NCBI GenBank assembly: GCA_003153435.1
Contig: PLYR01000089.1
Span: forward strand, 1 to 48,456
Direction of reading: 5' to 3'
Length of the DNA: 48,456 bases
DNA from: Bacteroidota bacterium
Lineage (GTDB): Bacteria > Bacteroidota > Bacteroidia > Palsa-965
The notes under the pieces are model-generated. The model did not search any database, was not told where the DNA came from, and saw nothing but the letters and a program-made list of their open reading frames with translations. Made by a program: the position numbers and the translations under genes. This document shows, piece after piece, positions 3,428 to 11,020 of the stretch; the first letter of the stretch is position 1; each line of letters starts with the position of its first letter.

Positions 3428-4534
3428 TTACACAAACCGATCTCCTCTTTTCACTTTCACATCGTTCACAATGTTACGAATTTGCTGTTCATCCTGTTTC
3501 TTGCAGATCAGTAGGATACCATCAGATTCGGCAACAATATACCCGTCCAGTCCTTCAATAACTACAAGCTTATCTTTCGGAACATGGACAATACAATTTT
3601 TGGTATCATAGAGCATCACATTCTTTCCCACCAGCGCATTCGCATTTTCACTCTTCTTAATATGATCATAGAGAGAGCCCCAGGTCCCTAAATCACTCCA
3701 GCCTATAATGGAGGAACGAACGTATACATTCTCCGCCTTTTCCATCACCGCATAATCAATAGAAACATTTTTACACTTACTATAGACTCCACGAATAAAT
3801 TCGGGTTCCTTGTCTGTATTGTAAATTTCCTTGCCTTCACTGAACAGTGCGGACATATCGGGAAGACTACGTTCCAGTTCCGAAATAATACTCTTCACGC
3901 TCCAGATAAAGATTCCGGAATTCCATAGAAAATCACCACTTTCCATAAAGAAACGGGCCATATCATGATCAGGCTTTTCTGTAAATGTTTTAACCTTTTT
4001 AATCCGATGATCCTTTTCTTTTAATTCCGATTCACGAAACTGAATGTACCCATAACCAGTATCAGGGCGAGTCGGGTTTATTCCAAGAGTGACCAGACAA
4101 TCCTCTGAGGCTGCCTTGCGGAAGGAAGAACGGATCGCTTTAATAAAAGTATCCTCTTTAGTGATGAGATGATCACTCGGAGCAACCACCATTACTGCAT
4201 CCGGATTGATTGAAGCAATCCGGTAAGCTGCATAAGCAATACAAGGGGCTGTGTTTTTTCTTGCAGGCTCTGAAAGAATATTTTGCAAAGGAAGTTCAGG
4301 TAACTGCTCCCTCACAAGAGCTATGTAGGACTCATTCGTCACAACAATAATATTTTCTTTCCGGCAGATACGAACAAACCGATCATACGTTTGCTGAAGC
4401 AGGGTCTTGCCCATTCCCAGTACGTCTATAAATTGCTTGGGGTGTTCAGTCCGGCTCATGGGCCAAAAACGGCTGCCTACGCCACCAGCCATAATTACAC
4501 AATATTCGTTTTTTGATTTTGTTTCTGCAGTCAT
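3428..4534 (-). CDS. manC: Mannose-1-phosphate guanylyltransferase
   Basis: The product (368 residues) makes GDP-mannose from GTP and mannose-1-phosphate for glycan and surface polysaccharide synthesis. The nucleotidyltransferase signature GGVGSRFWPMSR is at residues 17-28, followed by HPKQF. Further conserved blocks are SEPARKNTAPCIAYA (guanine and metal site) and VAPSDH. The GYGYI and FTEKP segments of sugar-1-phosphate binding follow. It is the short monofunctional form, lacking the C-terminal cupin isomerase domain of bifunctional ManC/AlgA. It begins 26 nt after the aminotransferase gene on the same strand and is probably co-transcribed with it. Confidence 0.92.
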   Translation of the reverse strand: MTAETKSKNEYCVIMAGGVGSRFWPMSRTEHPKQFIDVLGMGKTLLQQTYDRFVRICRKENIIVVTNESYIALVREQLPELPLQNILSEPARKNTAPCIAYAAYRIASINPDAVMVVAPSDHLITKEDTFIKAIRSSFRKAASEDCLVTLGINPTRPDTGYGYIQFRESELKEKDHRIKKVKTFTEKPDHDMARFFMESGDFLWNSGIFIWSVKSIISELERSLPDMSALFSEGKEIYNTDKEPEFIRGVYSKCKNVSIDYAVMEKAENVYVRSSIIGWSDLGTWGSLYDHIKKSENANALVGKNVMLYDTKNCIVHVPKDKLVVIEGLDGYIVAESDGILLICKKQDEQQIRNIVNDVKVKRGDRFV

Positions 4535-4560: not shown

Positions 4561-5853
4561 TTACGAAAGTTTGCTGATTGCTTTTCTCAGGTTTGAAATA
4601 ATTACTTCCACATCTTCCAATTTACAAGTCCCCACAGAAAGGCGATACCAGCTTGACTCCGGAGAAGTCCCGAATGCATAGAATGGCACGAGGGCTACCT
4701 TTGCCTCGTCCAGGATGTATTTGGTAATATCCATTGTCGTGTTCAAAGCAACACCAGAATCCATTTTCTTTCCATTCAGGCTGAACAGAACGGTGAGATA
4801 TATTGCACCTTCAGGCGCAATAGAATCGACAGAAAAGCCTTCTTCTTTCAATTTCTGAAAGCCAGCATGAAAGGCAACCAAACGGTCATTCACCTTTGCT
4901 TTTATCTGGTCAAGATAGGCATCATATGCCTCGGTATCAGCTAAGAATTTTGAAGTGGCCACTTGTTCAGCTTTCGGAGCCCAAGCTCCGACATGCGTCA
5001 GGATGGATTTAATTTTATCAGTGATTCTTTTGGGGCCAAAGGTCCACCCCACTCTCACCCCAGTTGAGGCCAGTGACTTCGAAATCCCATCAACAAACAC
5101 AGTGTAGTTCCTCATCTCTGGGCGCAAGCTTACAGGGTCATAATGGTGAGTTTCACCGAAACAAAGGTTCCAGTAAATCTGATCGTACATGAGGTAAAGG
5201 GGCTTTTTGTTTGCCGCATTTCGCTTAACATTTTCCTCAAGGATGAGATCACAGATTTCCTCCAGGTCTTTTTTCTTAAATGTTGTACCGGTAGGGTTTA
5301 AAGGGGAACAGAGCGCAATGAGATTGGCTTCTGAAATAAAAGGTGCAAATTCAGCAGCAGTCGGCATGAATTTGTTTTCATGCTTCGTTTCAATGATTTG
5401 TTGTTTTGCCCAGTTCAAATAGGTATAATGATTGTTGTTCCAAGAAGGCACGGGGAAGAGAACCGTATCCCCTACATCTACCAGCGCTCTGAAAATAGCA
5501 TAGATTACAGGGCGGGCACCACCGGCGATTACAATTTCATCTGGTTTATATTCCAATCCTCCTTTCCGCTTCAAAAAAGCAGAAACGGCAGCTCTAAGCT
5601 CAGGCATTCCTTCAGCAACCGGGTAGTTGGTCTCATCCGCCTGGTAAGCATCGATAATGGCTTTCTTTAGTCCGGAAGGAATAGGGAATATCTTAGGATT
5701 AAAATCACCAATAGTGAGATTATAGATTTTTTCTCCATTCTTGATTTTTTCATTAACCTCGGATGCGAGTTTAATAATTTCTGAGCCGATAATATTTTCA
5801 GCAATTGCAGATACCTTCAGGTCTTTCTTATTGATAACAGTGGTTGTGCTCAT
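4561..5853 (-). CDS. Pyridoxal-phosphate aminotransferase, class I/II (aspartate aminotransferase-like)
   Basis: A 430-residue fold-type I PLP enzyme. Visible features are the N-terminal substrate region (LTIGDFNPKIFPIP), the NYPVAEGMPELRAA block, the CSPLNPTGT segment with the conserved Asn, MYDQIYW (Asp and Tyr contacts to PLP), and DGISKSLASTGVRVGW with the Schiff-base Lys at 259. The late Arg that binds the alpha-carboxylate lies in SWYRLSVG. Such proteins transfer amino groups between amino acids and 2-oxoacids; the side-chain specificity cannot be read from sequence. The linkage to manC gives no obvious pathway. ATG at 5853; no clear promoter in the 140-nt gap upstream. Confidence 0.88.
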   Translation of the reverse strand: MSTTTVINKKDLKVSAIAENIIGSEIIKLASEVNEKIKNGEKIYNLTIGDFNPKIFPIPSGLKKAIIDAYQADETNYPVAEGMPELRAAVSAFLKRKGGLEYKPDEIVIAGGARPVIYAIFRALVDVGDTVLFPVPSWNNNHYTYLNWAKQQIIETKHENKFMPTAAEFAPFISEANLIALCSPLNPTGTTFKKKDLEEICDLILEENVKRNAANKKPLYLMYDQIYWNLCFGETHHYDPVSLRPEMRNYTVFVDGISKSLASTGVRVGWTFGPKRITDKIKSILTHVGAWAPKAEQVATSKFLADTEAYDAYLDQIKAKVNDRLVAFHAGFQKLKEEGFSVDSIAPEGAIYLTVLFSLNGKKMDSGVALNTTMDITKYILDEAKVALVPFYAFGTSPESSWYRLSVGTCKLEDVEVIISNLRKAISKLS

Positions 5854-5993: not shown

Positions 5994-6650
5994 TTAGCTG
6001 AATAAGCTTTCTGTTACGATGGTTACCTCACAGAGGGGGCTAAACAAGTATTTTCGTTGGGTTCCCAATTCGAGGCAGGTTATCCTCTTCCTGATCCTAT
6101 CCCCTTTCCGGAAATGCCTTCCTTTTCCAAAAACAAACACGGAACCTGGCGGGAGCTCTTCCAGAAAAACAGACCCATTTGCCTTGTCATAACGCTTCAA
6201 CACACGAAGTAACCCAATGTCAGAGCAACTGGAAGCTAATGGGTTTTTCAGATAACGACTTAGGGAGTGATGTAAATCCTCAGGAAAAAAGCTCAACTTA
6301 AAAAAGGGTTGCATGAGCTGACGAAACTCTATTTTCCACTCTTCTCCATGAGGTTTAACATTATCCCCATGCTTTTTGAAATTAGACAGGTGAGCAATTT
6401 CGTGCACAAGGGTAACAAGGAATGCGTAAGGATTCAGATCCCGGTTGATAGAGATATGGTGATTGGTGTGACGAAGTGGCGGGCGGTAGTCGCCATATTT
6501 TGAACTACGGCTCTTCTTTATCTTCAACTTAAAATCAAATGTAACAATCCACTCGGCAATCAAGGGTACAGCAGGAGCAGGAATATACTTATGCAGAATC
6601 GACTTGTTTCTTTCCAGCTGCGTCATATTCGGTTTCTTCGGCTTCGTCAA
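5994..6650 (-). CDS. SprT-like zinc metalloprotease domain protein
   Basis: The 218-residue protein carries the HEIAH zinc motif (H83, E84, H87) in LVTLVHEIAHLSNF and a downstream H101 (KPHGEEW), the HExxH...H arrangement of the SprT/Spartan domain. The C-terminal third lacks the four-Cys zinc ribbon seen in Spartan-type proteins and instead looks like a small beta domain (GSVFVFGKGRHFRKGDRIRKR). Eukaryotic relatives cleave DNA-protein crosslinks; bacterial SprT proteins are poorly characterised, so only a putative protease role is proposed. Basic residues are abundant, which would suit nucleic-acid proximity. A second in-frame ATG eight codons in is possible. A TATTTTTG element lies just upstream. 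Confidence 0.82.
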   Translation of the reverse strand: MTKPKKPNMTQLERNKSILHKYIPAPAVPLIAEWIVTFDFKLKIKKSRSSKYGDYRPPLRHTNHHISINRDLNPYAFLVTLVHEIAHLSNFKKHGDNVKPHGEEWKIEFRQLMQPFFKLSFFPEDLHHSLSRYLKNPLASSCSDIGLLRVLKRYDKANGSVFLEELPPGSVFVFGKGRHFRKGDRIRKRITCLELGTQRKYLFSPLCEVTIVTESLFS

Positions 6651-6715: not shown

Positions 6716-8857
6716 TTATTTCAAAATATGATAAACTGCAAAGCTTGCAGCATATGCTAGCACGCCCATATAACAGAATTGAATCAAAGGCCATTTCCAG
6801 CTTTTTGTTTCCCGATATACCACCGCAACAGTACTCATACATTGCATTGCAAATGCATAGAATATCATAAGTGAGATTGCCACGGCCAGACTGTAAACTT
6901 TTTTACCTGTAACCGGGTCTTTTTCGTCAATCATTTTTTCACGTATGGAACGTGAATTCTCCTTATCGCCAACGCTGTATATTGTTGCCATCGTACCCAC
7001 GAACACCTCTCTAGCTGCAAAAGAAGTGATCAGAGAAATACCAATTTTCCAATCATAGCCCAAGGGACGAATGACTGGTTCAATCCATTTACCTATTACT
7101 CCAGCATAGGAAGCTTCCAGCTTCTCTGCAGCTTTCTTGGGTTCCAGGTCAGTTCCAGGCATTGCATGAGTGGAGGAAGCATATTTTCTATCAATCTCTT
7201 CCATTCGTTTACCAGGTGCATGAGAAGATAACATCCAAAGAATCACCGAAATTGCAACGATCACTTTACCAGCCTCAAAGAGGAAAACCTTCACCTTTTC
7301 ATAAATAGTATAAAAAACCGAACTCCATTTCGGGGTCTGATAAACGGGCATTTCCATAATAAAATAACTTTTTTCCTTTGCTTTGAGAATGAATTTCATG
7401 ATCCATGCCGAGAACAGAGCAGCAGTGAAACCGATCAGGTACATAGCCATCAGAATCAAACCCTGCATATTGAAGAAAATAAGTTTTTTATCGGGCGGTA
7501 CAACCAGAGAGATCAGCAACGTATACACAGGCAGTCTCGCCGAACAGCTCATTAGAGGTGTTACGAGAATAGTAATCATTCTTTCTTTCCAGTTTCCTAT
7601 CGTCCGTGCGCTCATAATAGCCGGAACCGCACAAGCTACACCACTGATCAGAGGAATGACTGATTTGCCGTTCAACCCGAACTTCCGCATCATTTTGTCC
7701 ATAATAAAACTTACCCTTGCCATATATCCGGTGTCTTCAAGAATCGCGATAAAAGCGAACAAGAGTGCAATCTGAGGCACGAAAACTACTACACCACTCA
7801 GTCCGGCAAGGATCCCGTTTACGAACAAAGCAGAAAGTTCTCCAGTAGGCAGGTGAGCCGAACTCCATTTAGAGATCCCGACAAAAAGAGATTCGAGCCA
7901 CTCCATTGGATAAGCAGCAAGGAAAAAGATAGATTGAAAGAGCAGGAACAACACCACCAGAAAAATAACATATCCCCAGATGTGATGTGTCAACACTTCA
8001 TCTATTCGCTTTGTAACGGTTTTACTGGATTTTGATTTCTCCTCAACTGAATCAGCTACTATTATTCCGATTGAATGGAAGCGCACCACACTCTCATTAG
8101 CTTGAAAAGCGGTTGGATCAAAGCTATATTTCTTCAGTAGAGCCTCAATCCTCTTCTTTACTTCTGGTTTGAGGCCAGTATAATGCTTATAATTATTAAG
8201 TATTTGCCATACTGCATAGGAACCTGTTACGGGGAGGATTTGAGTTAAGTCCTCCAACAGAGCGGGGTCCGGTTTTTTTGTGAAAAAAATTTGGGAGGAA
8301 AGTGGTACAGGCTCTGTTAAGGTTTTGAGGAGTTCATCTACACCTTCTTTTTTCCTAGCATTCGTATAAAGAATTGGAATCTCTAAATGGGATCTGAGCT
8401 TTTCGAGGTTTATAGTAATCCCTCTTTGCTCCATAACATCCTTCATGTTGAGCACCAGAATAACTGGTCGCCTCAACTCAATGAGCTGAGTGACAAGAAA
8501 CAGATTCCTTTTTATATTGGAAGCATCTGCAATTACAACTGTACAGTCGGGATAATCACCGTTCGCCGGATCACAAAGCACATCAAAGGTGACCTGCTCG
8601 TCAAGAGACTTGGGGTAAAGACTATACGTGCCAGGGAGGTCGATAAATTGAATCTCCGTGAGTCCTGCTCCTTTACCCGGATTGTGCTTTGCATAACCAG
8701 TCTTCTTATCAACTGTTACACCTGGAAAATTTCCGGTACGCTGGTTCATGCCTGTGAGGGCATTAAAAAGTGTTGATTTCCCGCTGTTGGGATTTCCAAC
8801 CAAGGCGACCTTCAGCGTTGTTAAAGGTGATTTTTCAATCGATCCACGTTGCTCCAT
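6716..8857 (-). CDS. feoB: Ferrous iron transport protein B
   Basis: FeoB (713 residues from this start) is the inner-membrane Fe(II) transporter. Its N-terminal G domain has G1 GNPNSGKST at 21-29, DLPGTYS (G3) and NMKD (G4), followed by a helical spacer domain. A membrane domain with Gly/Ser-rich gate segments (SGVACAVPAIMSAR; ITSFAAREVFVG) follows. I chose the ATG at 8857: it has a purine-rich ribosome site (AAGGGAAGAGGA) directly upstream and begins just before the G domain. The longer in-frame start at 8968 would run 83 nt into feoA. feoA is 28 nt upstream on the same strand. The C-terminus ends after a last hydrophobic helix, with no FeoC-like extension. Confidence 0.95.
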   Translation of the reverse strand: MEQRGSIEKSPLTTLKVALVGNPNSGKSTLFNALTGMNQRTGNFPGVTVDKKTGYAKHNPGKGAGLTEIQFIDLPGTYSLYPKSLDEQVTFDVLCDPANGDYPDCTVVIADASNIKRNLFLVTQLIELRRPVILVLNMKDVMEQRGITINLEKLRSHLEIPILYTNARKKEGVDELLKTLTEPVPLSSQIFFTKKPDPALLEDLTQILPVTGSYAVWQILNNYKHYTGLKPEVKKRIEALLKKYSFDPTAFQANESVVRFHSIGIIVADSVEEKSKSSKTVTKRIDEVLTHHIWGYVIFLVVLFLLFQSIFFLAAYPMEWLESLFVGISKWSSAHLPTGELSALFVNGILAGLSGVVVFVPQIALLFAFIAILEDTGYMARVSFIMDKMMRKFGLNGKSVIPLISGVACAVPAIMSARTIGNWKERMITILVTPLMSCSARLPVYTLLISLVVPPDKKLIFFNMQGLILMAMYLIGFTAALFSAWIMKFILKAKEKSYFIMEMPVYQTPKWSSVFYTIYEKVKVFLFEAGKVIVAISVILWMLSSHAPGKRMEEIDRKYASSTHAMPGTDLEPKKAAEKLEASYAGVIGKWIEPVIRPLGYDWKIGISLITSFAAREVFVGTMATIYSVGDKENSRSIREKMIDEKDPVTGKKVYSLAVAISLMIFYAFAMQCMSTVAVVYRETKSWKWPLIQFCYMGVLAYAASFAVYHILK

Positions 8858-8885: not shown

Positions 8886-9128
8886 TTATGATGCCAGTAA
8901 GTGAATGAGAACCGTTGACGCTTCAGCTTTCCGCAAGCTGAGCATATATCCAGAGACCGTAATTGCAATAGGATCGCCCATGGGGGCTACTTTCACAAGT
9001 TGAACCCTTTCGCCCGGAGTACATCCCATTTCCAGCAGCTTCAGGGACATGATAGGATCTGTAAAGGAATCGATTATGCCGATTTGACCAATTTTAAGCT
9101 GAGAAAGATTGTGGGCTGATAGGGGCAT
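8886..9128 (-). CDS. feoA: Ferrous iron transport protein A
   Basis: The 80-residue product is a small SH3-like FeoA protein, a cytosolic partner or regulator of FeoB. Diagnostic features are KIGQIGIID near the start, LLEMGCTPGERVQLVK in the middle, and GDPIAITVSGYMLSLRKAEASTVLI at the end. Length is normal for the family. It is the first gene of the feoA-feoB pair, 28 nt before feoB, with a good -7 element upstream. No Fur box was recognised by eye. Confidence 0.93.
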   Translation of the reverse strand: MPLSAHNLSQLKIGQIGIIDSFTDPIMSLKLLEMGCTPGERVQLVKVAPMGDPIAITVSGYMLSLRKAEASTVLIHLLAS

Positions 9129-9151: not shown

Positions 9152-9159
9152 CAAAGATA
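9152..9159 (-). promoter_or_regulatory. -7 element TATCTTTG for feoAB
   Basis: The minus strand reads TATCTTTG, a perfect TAnnTTTG match, 23 nt before the feoA ATG. No TTG is seen at the usual -33 distance, so the promoter may need an activator or be weak. Confidence 0.55.
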
Positions 9160-9225: not shown

Positions 9226-9384
9226 TCATTTAGGGTGCAGTTGGTGCTTACTATTCCCCCAAGTTGGGCAATCAGTGCACTTGTTCTTCCTGTGAAACAC
9301 AAAACAACCTGTGCTGAATATGGAGAAAAGCAAAACCATCAGTAAAACAGTGAGTTTTCCGCTTATTCGAGAATACCTATTCAT
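9226..9384 (-). CDS. Small Cys-motif lipoprotein (52 aa) upstream of feoA
   Basis: This short gene encodes 52 residues from ATG at 9384 to TGA. The N-terminus is MNRYSRISGKLTVLLMVLLF with a basic n-region and a hydrophobic core, followed by the lipobox FSTGC, so the mature protein would start at Cys27. Only 26 residues follow, containing KNKCTDCPTWGN, a CxxC pair flanked by basic residues. A matching -7 element lies 32 nt upstream. Very short lipoproteins with a CxC or CxxC are, from memory, frequent in Bacteroidota, but their function is unknown. It is on the feoAB strand, 97 nt upstream of feoA. The signal plus lipobox plus promoter make a real gene likely. Confidence 0.7.
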   Translation of the reverse strand: MNRYSRISGKLTVLLMVLLFSIFSTGCFVFHRKNKCTDCPTWGNSKHQLHPK

Positions 9385-9415: not shown

Positions 9416-9423
9416 CAAAGATA
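9416..9423 (-). promoter_or_regulatory. -7 element TATCTTTG for the 52-aa lipoprotein
   Basis: The minus strand reads TATCTTTG, 31 nt before the ATG at 9384. The -33 region shows only CCTG. The region between here and the mlaE-like gene at 9528 also holds a weak plus-strand candidate (TTTA at 9437-9440, 19 nt, TAATTTTA at 9460-9467). Confidence 0.5.
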
Positions 9424-9527: not shown

Positions 9528-10268
9528 ATGAAGATTTTTTATCATATCGGTCGGTATTTCATCCTGCTTAGCCGGGTTTTTTCAAAACCGGAGAAAAGTA
9601 TAATCTATAGGAACCGCTTCTTTGAAGAGGTGAATTCACTCGGTATTGGGTCATTGGGTATTGTAGCTATTATTTCAGTATTCATGGGAGCGGTTATTAC
9701 CATTCAGGCAGCTTTCGGATTCGAGAGTCCGTGGATTCCGCTCTATGCAGTTGGCCTGGCTACCAGAGACAGTATTGTTCTTGAATTTTCTCCTGCAATT
9801 GTAAGTCTTATCCTCGCAGGCAAGGTAGGGTCCAGTATTGCAGGTGAAATTGGAACCATGAGGGTTACAGAGCAGATTGATGCCATGGAGATTATGGGCG
9901 TTAACTCTGCGGCCTACCTTATTCTTCCGAAAATTCTGGCTTTTATGTTTATCCTTCCTTTTCTAATCATCATCAGTATGTTTCTGGCTATGATAGGGGG
10001 TCTAGTGTTCGGCGTTCTGACCGGAGCGGTGACTCCTCATCAGTTTCTCTATGGAATCCAGTATGATTTCAGGCCGTACAATGTCTTTTATGCACTTGTG
10101 AAAGTGGTCGTGTTTGCTTTTATCATTACTTCTGTTTCGTCTTATCATGGATATTATACCAAAGGGGGAGCACTGGAGGTCGGCCGCTCCAGCACCAAAG
10201 CGGTGGTATACAGCAGCATCGTATTATTGTTCTTCGACTTATTACTCACCCAACTTCTTCTGGCATGA
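9528..10268 (+). CDS. MlaE/YrbE-type ABC transporter permease
   Basis: A 246-residue polytopic inner-membrane protein of the MlaE permease family, which moves phospholipids or other lipids between inner and outer membrane. The family hallmark is visible as AGEIGTMRVTEQIDAMEIMGVNSAAYLILPK in the middle, flanked by an amphipathic N-terminal segment and five or so hydrophobic helices. ATG 9528 gives a normal length (about 245-260). Its stop overlaps the start of the ATPase gene as ATGA, indicating translational coupling. The MCE-domain subunit (MlaD) that usually completes the system is not adjacent, so it is probably encoded elsewhere. Confidence 0.92.
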   Translation: MKIFYHIGRYFILLSRVFSKPEKSIIYRNRFFEEVNSLGIGSLGIVAIISVFMGAVITIQAAFGFESPWIPLYAVGLATRDSIVLEFSPAIVSLILAGKVGSSIAGEIGTMRVTEQIDAMEIMGVNSAAYLILPKILAFMFILPFLIIISMFLAMIGGLVFGVLTGAVTPHQFLYGIQYDFRPYNVFYALVKVVVFAFIITSVSSYHGYYTKGGALEVGRSSTKAVVYSSIVLLFFDLLLTQLLLA

Positions 10269-11020
10269 TCGAAGCAATAAATCTGAATAAGAGTTTCGGA
10301 AACAAACAAGTACTGAAGAACTTCTCCTTCAAGTTTGAGAAGGGGAAACCGAATTTGATCATAGGGGAGAGTGGAACGGGAAAGTCTGTTTTGTTAAAAA
10401 GTATGGTTGGGCTTTTGGAGCTTGATTCCGGTGAGGTTTTATATAGCGGGCGGGATTTCCTTAAGATGAATTTTAAAGAGAAAAAACTAATCCGTAAAGA
10501 AATAGGAATGCTTTTCCAGGGAGGTGCTCTTTTCGATTCTATGACTATTGAGGAAAATGTAGTTTTCCCTTTATCCCTCTTTACCGATAAATCTGCAGAG
10601 GAAAAGCGGGAGAGGGCTAATTCCTGTCTGCAAAGAGTTAATCTTGAAAACGTAAACAAACTCTATCCCTCAGAGATCAGTGGAGGAATGAAGAAACGAG
10701 TGGCTATAGCAAGGGCTATTTCCATGGAGCCTGAATATTTGTTCTGTGACGAACCGAATTCAGGGCTGGATCCTAAAACGTCTATCCTTATAGATGAGTT
10801 AATCAATGATCTTACCTATGAATTGAATATAACCACTATTGTAATCACACATGACATGAACTCTGTTCTGGAAATTGGTGATCATATCGCCTTCCTTTAC
10901 AAGGGAGAAAAGTGTTGGGAAGGCAACAAACAGGAAATTCTTCATACGGATAATAAAGAACTCAATGATTTTGTATACGCCACTAAATTCCTCAGAAATT
11001 TCAAAGATAAACTCAAATAA
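10265..11020 (+). CDS. MlaF-type ABC transporter ATP-binding protein
   Basis: This 251-residue cytosolic ATPase partners the MlaE-type permease encoded just before it (4-nt ATGA overlap). Walker A is GESGTGKS (34-41), the Q-loop is MLFQGGALFDSMTI, the ABC signature is ISGGMKKRVAIARA, and Walker B is YLFCDEPNSGLDP, with the switch His in ITHDM. The GGALFDSMTIEENV wording is typical of MlaF rather than of generic importers. The pair ends at a strong hairpin terminator 32 nt downstream. Confidence 0.92.
   Translation: MIEAINLNKSFGNKQVLKNFSFKFEKGKPNLIIGESGTGKSVLLKSMVGLLELDSGEVLYSGRDFLKMNFKEKKLIRKEIGMLFQGGALFDSMTIEENVVFPLSLFTDKSAEEKRERANSCLQRVNLENVNKLYPSEISGGMKKRVAIARAISMEPEYLFCDEPNSGLDPKTSILIDELINDLTYELNITTIVITHDMNSVLEIGDHIAFLYKGEKCWEGNKQEILHTDNKELNDFVYATKFLRNFKDKLK

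Follow-up and report, generated by a model that had tools for sequence, protein, structure and literature searches.

A minimal lipoprotein with a conserved cysteine motif, encoded in a gene block of Bacteroidia shared with ferrous iron uptake

The window analysed here, a stretch of 48,456 nt from a Bacteroidota bacterium, holds at positions 9226-9384 of the minus strand a genuine gene for a minimal lipoprotein, here called lp. The lp family is widespread in the class of the window and is without a Pfam or NCBIfam model, and the gene sits in an old inherited block that is shared with iron uptake and is not tied to iron uptake alone. Its features are best reconciled with a dithiol or metal peptide that is tethered by lipid, faces the periplasm and works on its own, and not with a dedicated Feo part, a tentative reading predicted from sequence to which we give a probability of about 0.4. 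The features of lp and the two promoter-like elements are listed below, with the evidence for each in brackets.

9226-9384, minus strand: lp, predicted lipoprotein precursor of 52 aa (open reading frame, homologues, alignments A1-A3, codon-level constraint in one pair)
9307-9384, minus strand: predicted signal peptide, residues 1-26 (sequence; helix 3-25 in the AlphaFold2 model)
9304-9306, minus strand: Cys27, predicted lipidated cysteine of the lipobox STGC (identical in 69/69 rows of A2, which were selected by motif)
9259-9279, minus strand: CTDCPTW motif with Cys36, Cys39, Pro40 and Trp42 (Cys36, Cys39 and Pro40 identical in 69/69 motif-selected rows of A2; 25/27 plain-search loci; Trp or Phe at P+2 in 61/78)
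9416-9423, minus strand: TATCTTTG, promoter-like element of lp (sequence; TAnnTTTG upstream of 44/78 homologues)
9152-9159, minus strand: TATCTTTG, promoter-like element of feoA (sequence; TAnnTTTG upstream of feoA in 23/38 homologous loci)

Translated from its ATG, lp has 52 residues (MNRYSRISGKLTVLLMVLLFSIFSTGCFVFHRKNKCTDCPTWGNSKHQLHPK). The first-pass annotation had read from the bare sequence an open reading frame with a signal, the lipobox FSTGC (Cys27) and the segment KNKCTDCP (Cys36 and Cys39), and all of these are present; the upstream element that it had assigned to the gene, TATCTTTG, lies 31 nt before the ATG, and the gap between the lp stop codon and the start of feoA on the same strand is 97 nt, as it had claimed. 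Residue -3 to the lipobox cysteine is Ser, which makes the lipobox a relaxed one. The AlphaFold2 model of lp (mean pLDDT 66.8) consists of a single helix spanning residues 3-25 and nothing else. Since every row of A1 and A2 has the lipobox cysteine and residues 3-25 form a hydrophobic helix, lp appears at motif level to be a lipoprotein of the signal peptidase II type. The size of the protein, which had been taken as unusual, is not singular, and mature parts of 16 or 17 residues, the shortest encountered, were found by a pattern scan at four loci (L158, L165, L180 and L186). The alternative suggestion of the annotation, a small Bacteroidota lipoprotein of unassigned role, is supported by the homologues: they keep the lipobox and the cysteine pair and often lie directly upstream of feoA.

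In a plain protein search against 59 genomes with lp alone as query, the best match came from a genome of the same genus (E 1.7e-12), followed by matches in two other families (E 3.4e-10 and 8.9e-10), and loci were fetched at E up to 0.027. The translated homologue search that had been proposed as a check was thereby run: the lipobox cysteine together with C-x(1,2)-C-P is kept in 25 of the 27 plain-search loci, the window included, and is missing in L023 and L025. Comparison of lp with its same-genus homologue over 45 codons gave a pN of 0.29 and a pS of 0.86, with 18, 8 and 29 differing sites at codon positions 1, 2 and 3 (29 of 55 at the third position), which shows that lp is under protein-level constraint in this one pair.

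Alignments of 24 rows (A1, chosen by eye among the plain-search loci) and 69 rows (A2) share four invariant columns, Cys27, Cys36, Cys39 and Pro40, and in A2 this invariance is partly built in because its rows were selected by C...C-x(1,2)-C-P. The same pattern had to be present for further fetched loci to be scored as lp-positive; among 96 of these (L061-L156) the rule removed 14 as lp-negative, one of which (L151) does hold lp and another (L128) a Cx3CP form. A profile made from the 69 rows matches 96 of 197 genomes of the window's class at E <= 1e-4. All 96 matches were read: 91 have C-x(1,2)-C-P, as befits a profile built on motif-bearing rows, and five are variants, namely a Cx3CP form in G015 and a lipobox with a single Cys-Pro in G078, G158, G181 and G185. 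The 13 matches read last comprised nine with the motif and all four with the single Cys-Pro; the latter represent either a one-Cys form of the lp family or the profile catching its neighbours. A targeted second look, in which FeoB-less genomes were not covered equally, recovered six carriers missed by the profile: G014, G082, G111 and G137 (39 usable loci), and G016 and G172 (one of 20 MlaE loci). In a sample across the phylum, nine of 148 genomes gave an lp profile match, all of them of the same class, the 119 misses being listed without regard to kinship; the class is Bacteroidia, to judge by record titles. About half of the class genomes sampled have conserved this gene, which lies below most annotation cut-offs. 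All seven class genomes without COX1 are also without an lp profile match (p 0.014 among 197 genomes, a value that comes from few families and ignores kinship).

Neither Pfam nor NCBIfam gives a match to the lp of the window at E up to 1. Searched together, the 69 members gave weak and scattered matches to these collections, the commonest in NCBIfam being LptM, with six members, and a search of solved structures with lp returned signal-peptide similarity alone (best E 0.26). A full-text literature search found no account of lp, its family or its gene order; we claim no wider absence. Entericidin-type mini-lipoproteins are tiny lipoproteins like lp and are not known to have a cysteine pair of the lp kind.

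The anatomy of the mature peptide was derived from 78 members with a clear start, the starts being picked by rule; four of the 82 loci with the motif were left out, three through an over-strict lipobox rule and one for lack of a start. Median mature length is 28.5 residues. The lipobox cysteine is followed by a short basic linker, then in most members by C-x(1,2)-C-P-x-[W/F], and finally by a free tail. The linker, from the lipid-bearing cysteine to the second one, is 8 residues long in the median, with a median net charge of +3. Exactly three cysteines are found in the mature part of 70 of the 78 members, an Asp or Glu directly precedes the third in 55, and Trp or Phe occupies P+2 in 61. The spacing of the cysteine pair varies (CxxCP in 49 and CxCP in 33 of the 82 motif loci), which in our view agrees better with a thiol or metal site than with a fold. 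With three conserved cysteines among about 28 residues, the mature peptide offers a precise and testable motif. The minimal surface-export signal of Capnocytophaga lipoproteins is given in PMC5080379 as K-(D/E)2 or Q-A-(D/E)2. Two acidic residues at positions +2 to +6 occur in none of the 78 lp members, and 76 have no acidic residue there at all, so the known surface-export signal is absent; the idea of a surface-exposed Bacteroidota lipoprotein, for which two acidic residues shortly after the cysteine would be expected, was set aside. The lp proteins end in Ile or Val in 26 of 78 cases, compared to 44 of 479 long open reading frames of the same loci, and a C-terminal recognition signal is conceivable.

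On the reading that we prefer, lp would be exported, lipidated and cut at Cys27, and would stay on the periplasmic face of a membrane, as the lack of a surface-export signal suggests. Its two free cysteines may then make up a dithiol site on a lipid tether, one that switches between the dithiol and disulfide states or else binds a transition metal, and the proline with the aromatic residue could be a docking epitope for a larger partner. The peptide would act alone in the envelope, not as a dedicated subunit of FeoB or MlaEF, and its place beside feoA would be mostly a matter of inherited gene order. This reading is favoured by the constancy of the motif (25/27 plain-search loci and 91/96 profile matches), the three mature cysteines in 70/78 members, separate promoter elements and the existence of carriers that lack FeoB. 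Against it stand the five of 96 profile matches without C-x(1,2)-C-P and a patchy presence that is odd for a general housekeeping part. The one-Cys form, if real, weakens the dithiol reading, and our confidence in a tethered thiol or metal peptide was lowered because the single-Cys-Pro matches were found. A periplasmic cysteine pair can likewise be a structural disulfide or a partner contact without redox or metal function. If the dithiol reading is true, lp would be a remarkably small redox or metal lipoprotein. Among the explanations considered, the autonomous thiol or metal peptide is placed first, followed by an accessory of Feo, an LptM-like helper and a partner of MlaEF, in this order.

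The genes of the block around lp are the following.

8886-9128, minus strand: feoA (PF04023, E 8e-19)
6716-8854, minus strand: feoB (TIGR00437, E 4.5e-153; PF02421; PF07664; the ATG at 8854 was chosen as start, the listed open reading frame opening at TTG 8968)
9528-10268, plus strand: mlaE-like ABC permease gene, divergent from lp (PF02405, E 1.1e-65)
10265-11020, plus strand: mlaF-like ABC ATPase gene (PF00005, E 3.2e-32; the MlaF name is from its place beside mlaE)
5994-6650, minus strand: SprT-like metalloprotease gene, next in the block (PF10263, E 2.7e-7)
4561-5853, minus strand: aminotransferase-like gene of the block (open reading frame and tblastn synteny; named by reading)
3428-4534, minus strand: manC-like gene of the block (open reading frame and tblastn synteny; named by reading)

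The order of the block, with mlaF-mlaE facing lp-feoA-feoB-sprT-aminotransferase-manC, is complete in L127 and L152 and also in the window, where the last two names are by reading. Across the 82 motif loci mlaE adjoins lp in 53 and feoA in 40. Sorted by neighbours, these loci fall into mlaE with feoA (26), mlaE with sprT (16), feoA only (14), mlaE only (11), sprT only (2) and none of the three (13), counts in which one side is hidden by a contig end in a few loci (L063 and L076). Where feoAB is located elsewhere, lp stays beside mlaE or sprT. Twelve of the 13 loci without block neighbours (all but L144) were read by eye, and no gene was common to all of them. Two of the late-read profile matches also lie in the context of the block, G056 with mlaE and feoA and G069 with feoA. 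Among mlaE-feoA pairs met in what were mostly lp-fetched loci, and therefore a biased count, L150 (G182) has no lp between the two genes, and the profile-negative L151 and L236 do have one.

A scan that is blind to neighbours was made with the codon-level pattern K-N-[K/R or near]-C-x-D-C-P-x-W over 84,980 species genomes. Of the 44 stretches that it returned, 38 were counted as real: 37 show a lipobox, and one that is cut at a contig end (L181) was accepted by its neighbours only; the six others (L159, L173, L183, L191, L198 and L199) have neither lipobox nor block neighbours. The real matches come from genomes designated Bacteroidota, Bacteroidetes, Bacteroidia, Flavobacteriales or Chitinophaga; 33 lie beside mlaE, 27 before feoA and 23 between both, and seven of the 38 are on contigs equal in length to those of loci in the first set and probably represent identical DNA, so that the two sets overlap.

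Two loci deserve mention for their own sake. The mlaE-feoA gap of about 600 nt without lp in L150 (4586-5180) holds repeated ACTAAGGCACTAAG-like stretches, noticed by eye. In L111 (G018) a single open frame of 190 codons covers both lp and feoA, next to an mlaE match that is split in two; assembly indels seem a likelier cause than a fusion.

Of the alternatives, the one that survives best is that lp is a periplasmic accessory of Feo, in which a tethered thiol would reduce Fe(II) or hand it to FeoB, in the place of the PF12669 protein; we consider this unlikely. The first-pass annotation had proposed such an accessory role from position and had named homologues scattered without feo linkage as the finding that would speak against it. 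That case did not occur: among the FeoB matches listed, 41 of 79 profile-carrier genomes have FeoB no more than 2.4 kb from lp, and feoA is the next gene in 40 of the 82 motif loci. The accessory role itself stands only in part, the feo linkage being frequent but without a significant tie to FeoB and with mlaE the commoner neighbour (53/82). The lp profile matches 86 of 169 genomes with FeoB, leaving 83 without a match, and 10 of 28 without a FeoB (PF07664) match (p 0.16); all ten FeoB-less genomes were read and have the motif. With the single-Cys-Pro matches removed or the missed carriers added, p ranges from 0.15 to 0.31, and the notion that lp occurs only or mainly with FeoB was given up. 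The FeoB-less carriers likewise weaken a reading of lp in terms of iron alone. The neighbour-blind scan, in which lp precedes feoA in 27 of the 38 real matches, favours the accessory role; inheritance of the block, on the other hand, accounts for the adjacency of lp and feoA. As a sign of function, the linkage seen in about half of the cases could still count.

Further evidence against a dedicated Feo part comes from the upstream regions. The TATCTTTG 8-mer is not rare, occurring 10 times in the window when the two strands are taken together. Its general form TAnnTTTG occurs within 60 nt upstream of 44 of the 78 rule-picked lp homologue starts, compared to a mean of 2.7 in shuffles, and it precedes feoA at 23 of 38 loci, compared to a shuffle mean of 1.8, which shows that lp and feoA often carry separate promoter-like elements, as far as such elements can be recognized by motif. 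No upstream site shared by lp and feoA was found across 34 loci, pairs from the same locus being no more alike than permuted ones (mean similarity 10.74 vs. 10.62; 391 of 2000 permutations equal to or above the observed value). Folding of the stretch between lp and feoA, which contains a ACCCTAAA/TTTAGGGT inverted repeat, is not more favourable than that of shuffled sequences (z -0.26).

The known protein that lp most recalls at feo loci is that of PF12669, which is likewise small, Cys-containing, membrane-linked and found near feo genes in Bacteroidota. PF12669 is described in PMC8749426 as lying downstream of feoB and having the motif Cx3-5Cx2-3Cx6-8C. Unlike it, lp is encoded upstream of feoA, is a predicted lipoprotein and has C-x(1,2)-C-P. 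Membership in PF12669 was rejected: the window lp has no match at E up to 1, PF12669 is not among the nine families matched by the 69 members at E up to 0.1, and the place upstream of feoA is not the one downstream of feoB. Among the 149 genomes with listed places, 14 have PF12669 no farther than 1.5 kb from FeoB and 46 have lp beside feoA, and as far as was seen the two do not coincide (hypergeometric P 0.004, or 0.007 with other totals). Such exclusion speaks for lp in the place of PF12669, but the value ignores kinship and includes PF12669 matches below the curated cut-off, and it leaves five of the 14 regions upstream of feoA unread for a missed lp. With lp, a further small Cys protein is placed next to the genes of ferrous iron uptake. 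A bolder extension of the preferred reading, which we regard as speculative and doubtful, is that lp belongs to a new class of lipid-tethered dithiol peptides, with 16 or 17 mature residues at the shortest, that would move electrons or metal at the periplasmic face in aerobic Bacteroidia and at feo loci would be a non-homologous stand-in for the Cys-rich Feo protein in redox or iron hand-over.

It is also possible, with a probability that we place below that of the Feo accessory, that lp resembles LptM (YifL), a very small lipoprotein with a short mature part which is reported in PMC10567701 to promote oxidative maturation of the LPS translocon. As a small outer-membrane lipoprotein, lp would bind an envelope machine and aid its maturation or mimic its substrate through the Cys-Pro-aromatic epitope, possibly by a mixed disulfide. 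The size of lp, its predicted disorder and a conserved epitope near the lipid are consistent with this, and six of the 69 members are weakly similar to the LptM model NF047847 (best E 5.9e-4); the window lp itself, however, has no LptM match, and the similarity to solved YifL/LptM is confined to the signal peptide and lipobox. The mature part is not covered by that alignment, and lp was not assigned to LptM.

Less probable again is that lp is a partner of the divergent MlaE/MlaF lipid transporter or regulates it. Such a role is suggested by mlaE being the commonest neighbour, in 53/82 motif loci and 33/38 real scan matches, and divergent from lp wherever displayed. The divergent arrangement, however, does not make an operon, and MlaE is present in 194 of 197 genomes compared to lp profile matches in 96. 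Moreover, feoA without mlaE adjoins lp in 14/82 loci (in L063 there is a contig end at that side), and 13/82 have none of mlaE, feoA and sprT, loci without mlaE that weaken this explanation; lp was found in one of 20 MlaE loci of profile-negative genomes, in which block copies and other mlaE genes were not told apart. In the window the mlaE-mlaF pair (9528-11020) is followed by a convergent open reading frame, with no obvious MCE gene in the list of open reading frames, and the genome of the window (G000) has two further MlaE genes (C39 and C42); the block may stably include an orphan MlaEF pair.

Finally, lp could be imagined as a precursor peptide that an MNIO enzyme turns into a lipidated RiPP, since DAG-RiPP precursors such as DybA and the chryseobasin-like ones are also small Bacteroidota proteins with a lipobox cysteine and a conserved Cys motif near the end, having, according to PMC12636315, a CPxCGxG motif and an adjoining MNIO gene, and since an MNIO match, found in 21/197 class genomes, is weakly associated with lp (15/96 vs. 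6/101 genomes, p 0.04); but this is very improbable and was rejected, the lp consensus C-x(1,2)-C-P-x-[W/F] differing from the CPxCGxG core, no MNIO adjoining lp, none (PF05114, E up to 1e-10) being found in the window genome G000 or in 81 of the 96 lp genomes, and the lp contig carrying one in 0 of the 15 lp genomes that have an MNIO.

The weak profile matches include another type of tiny lipoprotein, which has a single additional cysteine, in the contexts CPAYG, CPAYS, CPSY, CPTV or CPAF, and without adjoining mlaE or feoA (L133, L136, L139, L145, L146, L147, L148, L149, L269, L275, L277 and L278). It is either a one-Cys branch of the lp family or a separate family. At one of its loci, L139, a weak FeoB match lies at the far end.
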